A stretch of 53,563 bases of DNA from the NCBI GenBank assembly GCA_027491165.1, contig JAIXWS010000088.1, positions 1 through 53,563 on the forward strand, in the 5' to 3' direction. Under the pieces are notes generated by a model. It did not search any database. It was given only the letters and a program-made list of their open reading frames with translations, and was not told where the DNA came from. Positions 13,709-16,174 of the stretch are shown one piece after another. The stretch is from Sphingobacteriales bacterium (GTDB lineage: Bacteria > Bacteroidota > Bacteroidia > Chitinophagales > Chitinophagaceae). Both the position numbers and the translations under genes were made by a program. How positions within the stretch are numbered: position 1 is the stretch's first letter; every line of letters begins with the position of its first letter.

Positions 13709-14287
13709 TTGGATAATTTAATTACTCATTTTAATCAATATCTGCCCCTCAATGAATTGGAGGTGGAAGCTTTGGGTATTAGGGTAATTGAAAAAACAAT
13801 CAAGCGAAGACAATTTATCCTTAATAAAGGCGACACTTGTAGGCATTATAGCTTTGTTTCATCTGGTTTATTGAGGAAGTACGCGATTGATAAAAATGGC
13901 TGTGAATTCAATATTCAGTTTGCCACCGAAAATCAATGGATACAAGACTTAGGAAGCTTCAATAACAATACGCCCAGTCAATTTTATATTGAGGCTATCG
14001 AACCCTCTATTCTATTCCAACTCGATAAAAATAGTTTGCTTTATTTATTGCAGAATTTCCCAAAATTCGATCGAAATTTTAGGGTTATCATGGAAAATAA
14101 ATTTATTAACCTAGAAAATAGGATCTTTCAAAATATCAGCTTAAGTGCTGAAGAAGGCTATAAAAAATTCTTGAACGAATATCCTGAGCTATATAACCGT
14201 CTACCAAACACCCAAATAGCCTCCTATCTTGGCATTACACCAGAATTCCTCAGCAAGGTTCGCCGAAATATCTCTCTTAAGGACTAA
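13709..14287 (+). CDS. Crp/Fnr-family transcriptional regulator
   Basis: A 192-residue regulator read from a TTG start; no ATG lies early enough to keep the first helix. Residues about 20-120 form the cyclic-nucleotide-binding-type beta roll (FILNKGDTCRHYSFVSSGLLRKYAI). A dimer helix follows, then a C-terminal helix-turn-helix (TQIASYLGITPEFLSKVRR). There is no N-terminal cysteine cluster, so it is not a classical Fnr Fe-S sensor. It lacks an obvious cAMP-binding RTA motif, as is common for the short Bacteroidota Crp-like proteins. It lies 98 bases before the rhodopsin on the same strand, so it could regulate rhodopsin and blh; that is inference from position only. Confidence 0.85.
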   Translation: MDNLITHFNQYLPLNELEVEALGIRVIEKTIKRRQFILNKGDTCRHYSFVSSGLLRKYAIDKNGCEFNIQFATENQWIQDLGSFNNNTPSQFYIEAIEPSILFQLDKNSLLYLLQNFPKFDRNFRVIMENKFINLENRIFQNISLSAEEGYKKFLNEYPELYNRLPNTQIASYLGITPEFLSKVRRNISLKD

Positions 14288-14385: not shown

Positions 14386-15105
14386 ATGGAAAATTTAAAA
14401 ATTGCGAGTGACAATTACGTGGCCTTTACTTTCTTTATCGGCACGATGGCTATGATGGCCGCATCGGTATTCTTTTTCTTTGAGCTAAACAACACCTCAA
14501 AAAAATGGAGAACTTCAGTTTTGGTTTCTGGATTAATCACTTTCATTGCAGCAGTGCATTACTACTACATGAGAGGGTATAATTTAGCAACTGGTGAATC
14601 ACCTACATTCTTTAGATATGTAGATTGGATTCTAACCGTGCCTTTGATGTGCGTGGAATTTTATTTAATAACCAAAAAAGCTGGTGCAAAAATTGGTTTA
14701 TTATGGAAATTAATTGCCGCTTCATTGGTAATGTTAATTACAGGTTACATTGGAGAAGTTATTGATCCAACACAAAGCGTTCTTTGGGGAGTAATCTCAG
14801 GAGCTGCTTATTTCTATATTGCATACTTAATTTGGTTTGGTGAGGTTGCAAAACTGTCACAAACAGCAGGTCCACAAGTTGCAAAAGCAACTCGTATCCT
14901 TGGTTGGTTCGTATTAGTAGGATGGGCAATCTATCCTTTAGGATACATCCTAGGAACAGAAGGTGGTTTATTCGGAATGAAATTGGTTCAAGACAAAGCT
15001 GCTGCTTTGCATTCTATGGACATTGTTTATAACATCGCTGATGCTATCAACAAAATTGGATTTGGTTTGGTTATTTATGCACTGAGCAGAAATAGCGAAG
15101 ACTAA
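14386..15105 (+). CDS. Light-driven proton-pump rhodopsin (proteorhodopsin/xanthorhodopsin type)
   Basis: A 239-residue seven-helix microbial rhodopsin. Helix C reads RYVDWILTVPLMCVEFYL: Asp80 (proton acceptor), Thr84 and Glu91 (donor) form the DTE triad of outward proton pumps. His58 matches the acceptor-pairing His of proteorhodopsin and Arg77 the conserved Arg. Lys223 in DAINKIGFG is the retinal Schiff-base lysine, with Asp219 as second counter-ion. Met88 sits at the spectral tuning position (105 in green proteorhodopsin), which predicts green absorption. Gly135 in helix E (LWGVIS) aligns by my reading with the glycine that lets xanthorhodopsin and Gloeobacter rhodopsin bind a carotenoid antenna. 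There is no cleavable signal peptide. A regulator precedes it; a terminator and then blh follow. Confidence 0.96.
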   Translation: MENLKIASDNYVAFTFFIGTMAMMAASVFFFFELNNTSKKWRTSVLVSGLITFIAAVHYYYMRGYNLATGESPTFFRYVDWILTVPLMCVEFYLITKKAGAKIGLLWKLIAASLVMLITGYIGEVIDPTQSVLWGVISGAAYFYIAYLIWFGEVAKLSQTAGPQVAKATRILGWFVLVGWAIYPLGYILGTEGGLFGMKLVQDKAAALHSMDIVYNIADAINKIGFGLVIYALSRNSED

Positions 15106-15127
15106 TCTTTCTGATAATTATATGTAG

Positions 15128-15172
15128 AATAAGGAGGCTTCAAAAATAGATTGAATGCCTCCTTATTTTTTT
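15128..15172 (+). terminator. Terminator between rhodopsin and blh
   Basis: An 11-base perfect stem AATAAGGAGGC (15128-15138) and GCCTCCTTATT (15157-15167), extendable inward by TTCA/TGAA across a one-base bulge, followed by seven T at 15166-15172. It lies 22 bases after the rhodopsin stop and 19 bases before the blh start, so blh is reached only by read-through or a promoter of its own. Confidence 0.85.
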
Positions 15173-15190: not shown

Positions 15191-16174
15191 TTGAAAGTAA
15201 ATCATAATGATGAGTCCATAAAGGAAACTTCCTCAATCATTGAGCGCATAGAAAAAAATTACCTAAGGAAAATCACTTCAAGATTCAGAAAATACATGGG
15301 GCGGTATAGATACATCATTTCAACAGCATTAATCATACTATACGCAATAGTATCCCTCTACAGTAATACCATTGCACAATATTACAGCTATAGTATAGTT
15401 TTAGCAGGGCTTTTTGTGGTGGGTATACCTCATGGCGCTGTGGATCACTTGCTCATTGCAAACAAGAAAAATGTTTTGGTAGCATTTATTTTGAAGTATT
15501 TGCTAATCATTTTAGCTTATTTTATCCTTTGGTTAAGCTATCCAATGGTTGCCTTGGTCATCTTTATAGCTTACTCAGCATTTCATTTTGGTGAATCAGA
15601 GCTGGAAGAACTTGGAATAAAAAACACTTCTGTGAAAATTTATGGTAAGGCTTTTCTTATGGGCTTATCCATACTGATGTTCATAATCTGTATGCACTTC
15701 AATGAATCAATTCAGCTCCTGTCGAAAATTAGTGGTCTAGACTCACTTTTATCCTTAAAAGAGATTAGTCCTTACCAATTGTATATAATACCAAGCTTAG
15801 CCTTTCTGTACATCCTATTTCAAGCCGTTTTTCAAAAACATTACTCCCTTCTAGCCGTTTTAATGCTCTTGATAATTGGTATTTTCGTTCCACTCTTATT
15901 ATCCTTTGCCCTATATTTCATTTGTCAACATAGTTACAATGCATGGAAGCATGTACAAAAACAGCTGGATATTCCGCATTTTGCTTTATACAAGAAGACC
16001 ATACCTTATACAATAGGTGCTTTATTTATCTTCTTGATTATCTTAGTTTTTGTCAATATCAACTCAAGCTATTTACAGCTTATGTCAACAAACTTCTTTA
16101 TATTTCTAGCTTGTATTAGTTTGCCTCATTTCCTGCTGATGCATGTATTCTACAAAAGCGGTTTTCAACACTAA
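15191..16174 (+). CDS. blh: Brp/Blh-family beta-carotene 15,15'-dioxygenase
   Basis: A 327-residue integral membrane protein of the Brp/Blh family, which cleaves beta-carotene into two retinals for microbial rhodopsins. Iron-binding histidines of the family are visible: His81 and His86 (GIPHGAVDH), His132 (FHFGESE), His247 and His254 (ICQHSYNAWKH), and His313 and His318 (SLPHFLLMH). About eight hydrophobic helices span residues 40-320. The frame begins at a TTG (15191); the first ATG (15296, Met36) would still keep every helix, so the start is uncertain. It is the only carotenoid-processing gene here; phytoene synthase, desaturase and cyclase genes must lie elsewhere. Confidence 0.92.
   Translation: MKVNHNDESIKETSSIIERIEKNYLRKITSRFRKYMGRYRYIISTALIILYAIVSLYSNTIAQYYSYSIVLAGLFVVGIPHGAVDHLLIANKKNVLVAFILKYLLIILAYFILWLSYPMVALVIFIAYSAFHFGESELEELGIKNTSVKIYGKAFLMGLSILMFIICMHFNESIQLLSKISGLDSLLSLKEISPYQLYIIPSLAFLYILFQAVFQKHYSLLAVLMLLIIGIFVPLLLSFALYFICQHSYNAWKHVQKQLDIPHFALYKKTIPYTIGALFIFLIILVFVNINSSYLQLMSTNFFIFLACISLPHFLLMHVFYKSGFQH

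Follow-up and report, generated by a model that had tools for sequence, protein, structure and literature searches.

Two-pigment light pumps of the kind considered here were described in 2023–2025, and zeaxanthin binding is already established for close relatives of the rhodopsin analysed below. The window glycine is the primary criterion for carotenoid binding, and a polar pocket bottom has been tied to 3-hydroxy carotenoids (PMC12308411). Table 2 of the same paper gives four helix-F residues near zeaxanthin, which are Y/A/S/Y in Kin4B8, Y/M/M/A in xanthorhodopsin (XR), Y/L/M/L in Gloeobacter rhodopsin (GR), Y/M/T/D in KR1 and Y/I/T/E in EinA29G6. The last two (KR1, BAN14807; EinA29G6, UJI09384) are proteorhodopsin-family binders of the 3-hydroxy xanthophylls lutein and zeaxanthin; KR1 does not bind canthaxanthin (PMC12308411). 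Blue-light harvesting and photocycle acceleration have both been reported for such proteins. According to a 2026 paper, every proteorhodopsin in its Bacteroidota subtree has the diagnostic glycine (PMC13043013).

The rhodopsin and its clade

The sequence window (the whole stretch of 53,563 nucleotides that was analysed) encodes a proteorhodopsin of 239 amino acids at 14386–15105 on the forward strand (PF01036, 152.5 bits), the only rhodopsin in the source genome. Its translation agrees with the residues named in the original prediction: H58, D80, T84, M88, E91 and K223 are all present, and Gly135 lies within L133-W-G-V-I-S138, followed by Y144-x-x-Y147-x-x-W150. In a MAFFT alignment with PDB chains, D80 (14623), T84 (14635) and E91 (14656) of helix C (14623–14658) fall on the DTE motif in every reference chain. 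M88 (14647) occupies the spectral-tuning site, which is Leu in green proteorhodopsin and Gln in blue proteorhodopsin, and Lys223 (15052–15054) is the retinal Schiff-base lysine. The proposed green-tuned DTE pump is supported by this alignment, and outward light-driven proton pumping is predicted. The host is a freshwater-type Bacteroidota bacterium with this predicted light-driven proton pump. Directly upstream, on the same strand, lies a Crp/Fnr-type regulator (cNMP_binding, 13709–14287); in L006, L007, L068, L069, L083 and L085 a homologue with 55–58% identity likewise precedes the rhodopsin at close range.

Phylogenetically, the protein groups with the Bacteroidota proteorhodopsins, NM-R1 among them. 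In a quickly built tree with SH-aLRT supports only, it sits in a 45-row branch (support 93) with 9JOV and Bacteroidota rows, apart from the XR branch (support 100) and the gamma-proteorhodopsin branch (support 96). The predicted structure (pLDDT 87, pTM 0.84; modelled from 40 sequences of the window and the genome contigs) best matches zeaxanthin-bound NM-R1 (9JOU; 60% identity, TM 0.89, rmsd 1.7), a superposition of the overall fold; XR and Kin4B8 follow at 27–28% identity. NM-R1 (9JOV is a near-identical chain) shares the clade, the DTE motif, Met at the tuning site, the window Gly and the Tyr and Thr of the helix-F pocket, but has Pro at 192 (Glu here) and Met at 188 (Ile here). XR (3DDL) and GR (6NWD) are likewise DTE-type proton pumps with the window glycine and the pocket Tyr; they differ in forming their own clade, at about 27–31% identity, and in a hydrophobic pocket bottom fit for 4-keto carotenoids (PMC12308411). 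Membership of the XR/GR/Kin4B8 clade was rejected on the separate tree branch and the low identity. The original comparison with xanthorhodopsin gives way to one with NM-R1, KR1 and EinA29G6, all of the proteorhodopsin family. Green proteorhodopsin (7B03) has the same fold and DTE motif at about 41% identity, but its window is closed by Phe, with Tyr at the T191 position.

Contigs assigned by binning to Myxococcales, Proteobacteria and Bdellovibrio also bear Bacteroidota-type rhodopsins (L079, L084 and L089), by gene transfer or mis-binning. The rhodopsin of one Bacteroidia relative (G206:C1:1676779-1677499) is in two pieces with internal stop codons, either a decaying gene or an assembly error.

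Retinal and carotenoid supply

Next to the rhodopsin, at 15191–16174 on the forward strand, lies blh, encoding a β-carotene 15,15'-dioxygenase for retinal synthesis (TIGR03753, 141.1 bits against a cut-off of 95.25; PF15461). Between the two genes, on the same strand, a strong hairpin with a T run resembles an intrinsic terminator (15126–15172; −21.6 kcal/mol, z −5.35). Of 15 relatives examined, 14 have a similar hairpin, different in sequence, behind the rhodopsin, which suggests that more transcript is made of the pump than of the retinal enzyme. Blh stands alone in the window, with no CrtY remnant. Among genome-contig relatives with a Blh frame, 44 of 60 carry a CrtY-Blh fusion, in which lycopene cyclase and the dioxygenase that forms retinal make up one protein (e.g. 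L027:4805-6850 and L068:4791-6830), mostly of 600–690 amino acids and usually just downstream of the rhodopsin; PF05834 and PF15461 were confirmed by Pfam in two. Our literature search found no description of a bacterial CrtY-Blh fusion; the only fusion containing Blh that it turned up is from a protist.

The prediction that the host makes carotenoids is borne out by contig C27 of the source genome, where a CarH-like MerR/B12 regulator is followed by crtI, crtB, idi, a CrtZ-like hydroxylase and, at the contig end, a CrtYcd-type lycopene cyclase (PF18916, 64.6 bits). The name CrtZ-like rests on Pfam family, motif and gene neighbours, with no NCBIfam model matched. CrtI scores above the NCBIfam cut-off for a bifunctional phytoene desaturase/3,4-desaturase (NF058655, 734.8 against 640), so zeaxanthin is one possible end product and a 3',4'-didehydro monocyclic 3-hydroxy carotenoid another; each bears the ring that the pocket would hold. 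The genome's three FA_desaturase-family proteins match fatty-acid desaturase models, below the curated cut-offs of those models, and no CrtW-like ketolase was found among them. At L022:3767-4648, a CarH-like MerR regulator containing a B12-binding domain lies next to the crt cluster and might switch carotenoid synthesis in response to light.

A proposed two-pigment pump

In helix F, Y187, I188, T191 and E192 (14944–14961, forward strand) correspond to Kin4B8 positions 204/205/208/209. They reproduce the Y/I/T/E set of EinA29G6 exactly, and resemble the Y/M/T/D of KR1, when the proteins are compared by these four residues. Y187 stands at the tyrosine of XR 207 and Kin4B8 204, which is not diagnostic, as green proteorhodopsin has Tyr too. 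T191 and E192 provide polar residues at Kin4B8 208/209, the mark of the 3-hydroxy type. Of 97 relatives, 95 retain T191; at position 192, which varies, 79 have Pro and 5 have Glu. The polar pocket bottom, the presence of crtZ in the genome and the failure to detect a CrtW-like ketolase there make a 3-hydroxylated carotenoid, and not a keto one, the expected ligand. The original prediction had allowed for either type; the hydroxylated half agrees with T/E and crtZ, and the keto half is made unlikely by the rejection of canthaxanthin by KR1 (T/D) and by the lack of a CrtW-like protein among the three desaturase-family proteins.

The best overall explanation, which we consider highly probable, is a Bacteroidota-clade pump that holds retinal and, through the Gly135 gap, a 3-hydroxy carotenoid. 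Blh would make retinal from β-carotene for binding on Lys223, and the crtI-crtB-idi-crtZ-crtY cluster would make a 3-hydroxy-β-ring carotenoid, either zeaxanthin or a monocyclic 3-hydroxy compound such as one of the saproxanthin/myxol type. The carotenoid would lie along the outside of the protein with its ring inserted beside retinal through the Gly135 gap, held by Y187, T191 and E192, and would pass blue-green excitation to retinal and/or speed the photocycle. What the sequence shows directly is which residues are present and how well they are conserved, which pathway genes the genome has, and the likeness to a zeaxanthin-bound structure. From them we infer carotenoid binding, the probable identity of the carotenoid, and energy transfer or acceleration. 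The match of the full pocket to EinA29G6 and the zeaxanthin-bound state of the closest structure strengthen the two-pigment reading.

A variant compatible with this pump is that the carotenoid binds mainly as a photocycle accelerator or stabilizer, with light harvesting a minor role. We regard it as a serious possibility, though one that falls well short of probable: the title of Fujiwara et al. 2025 and NM-R1 as the closest structure speak for it, and against it KR1 with 3-hydroxy xanthophylls resembled Kin4B8, energy transfer included (PMC12308411).

Conservation of the window glycine

The hand alignment behind the original prediction had set Gly135 on the window glycine of XR and GR, where green proteorhodopsin has Phe. 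MAFFT alignment with PDB chain sequences agrees: Gly135 (codon GGA, 14788–14790, forward strand) falls on the glycine of XR (3DDL, G156), Kin4B8 (7YTB, G153), GR (6NWD) and the Bacteroidota proteorhodopsin 9JOV, and the position is Phe in green proteorhodopsin (7B03) and Trp in Med12 blue proteorhodopsin (4JQ6). The glycine is kept in 96 of 97 close-relative rhodopsins and in 82 of 83 rhodopsin loci taken from 395 genomes sampled across the class, two sets that overlap in that both include the window protein and the same lone exception. Over the 97 rhodopsins, position 135 has an entropy of 0.08 bits, against 1.88 at 133 and 1.40 at 136, which argues against chance. Given these counts and the same glycine reported in PMC13043013, Gly135 is ordinary for the group. 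The carotenoid-antenna glycine is present as predicted; it is a class-wide trait, already published, and no distinguishing mark of this protein.

The glycine might then simply be inherited among Bacteroidota proteorhodopsins, with no carotenoid function here and a window that is empty or filled by lipid. Its class-wide presence indeed says little about this species, and a 98% complete genome (G310) keeps Gly in its rhodopsin, yet crtB and crtZ were undetected there; both points weaken the two-pigment reading. We nevertheless judge mere inheritance improbable, against which stand the complete 3-hydroxy carotenoid pathway in the source genome, the retention of the full pocket and not of the glycine alone, and the near-zero entropy at 135 beside variable neighbours. 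Least probable by far is a keto-carotenoid antenna like that of XR or GR, with which the protein shares Tyr187: the pocket bottom is polar T/E and not M/A or M/L, KR1 (T/D) rejects canthaxanthin (PMC12308411), and the search for a CrtW-type ketolase found none among the three desaturase-family proteins.

Returning to the two-pigment pump, CrtZ and rhodopsin tend to occur together. Retinal synthesis requires β-carotene but can do without CrtZ. Across the class sample, 83 of 87 rhodopsin-bearing Bacteroidia genomes have CrtZ versus 167 of 308 others, and among crtB-positive genomes only, 82 of 83 versus 163 of 179 (Fisher p 0.015), both counts being uncorrected for kinship. Among 101 near relatives, CrtZ is present in 14 of 16 proteorhodopsin-type carriers versus 49 of the remaining 85. 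One locus (L091) has the rhodopsin beside crtI, crtB and crtZ, and in two genomes (G098 and G065) the two genes are no more than about 2 kb apart, crtZ being the partner.

Scanning the 101 relatives and the class-wide sample gave a single closed window. The rhodopsin at L096:4001-4717 (= L109; genome G101/G239), the sole one in the set with Phe135, also carries G139M, A140F, F143G and T191A, and thus a remodelled pocket. The 25 pocket positions account for eight of its 15 private residues (hypergeometric 1.9e-5, for a pocket delimited after seeing the case). The protein nests inside the Gly clade, which makes the Phe135 change derived. Neither crtB nor crtZ was detected in its genome (95% complete), and no Blh in the flank reaching about 1.2 kb behind the rhodopsin. 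Phe135 is one case, and the counter-case G310 keeps Gly although neither crtB nor crtZ was detected there. We suggest only tentatively, at somewhat less than even probability, that nearly all Bacteroidia proteorhodopsins may be two-pigment pumps maintained by selection, in which loss of the carotenoid pathway from a lineage is followed by closure of the window.

The present locus adds a freshwater-type member of this kind, one whose own genome encodes the full ligand pathway. Together, the class-wide counts and the one natural Phe exception make it simple to test whether carotenoid binding is what preserves the window.
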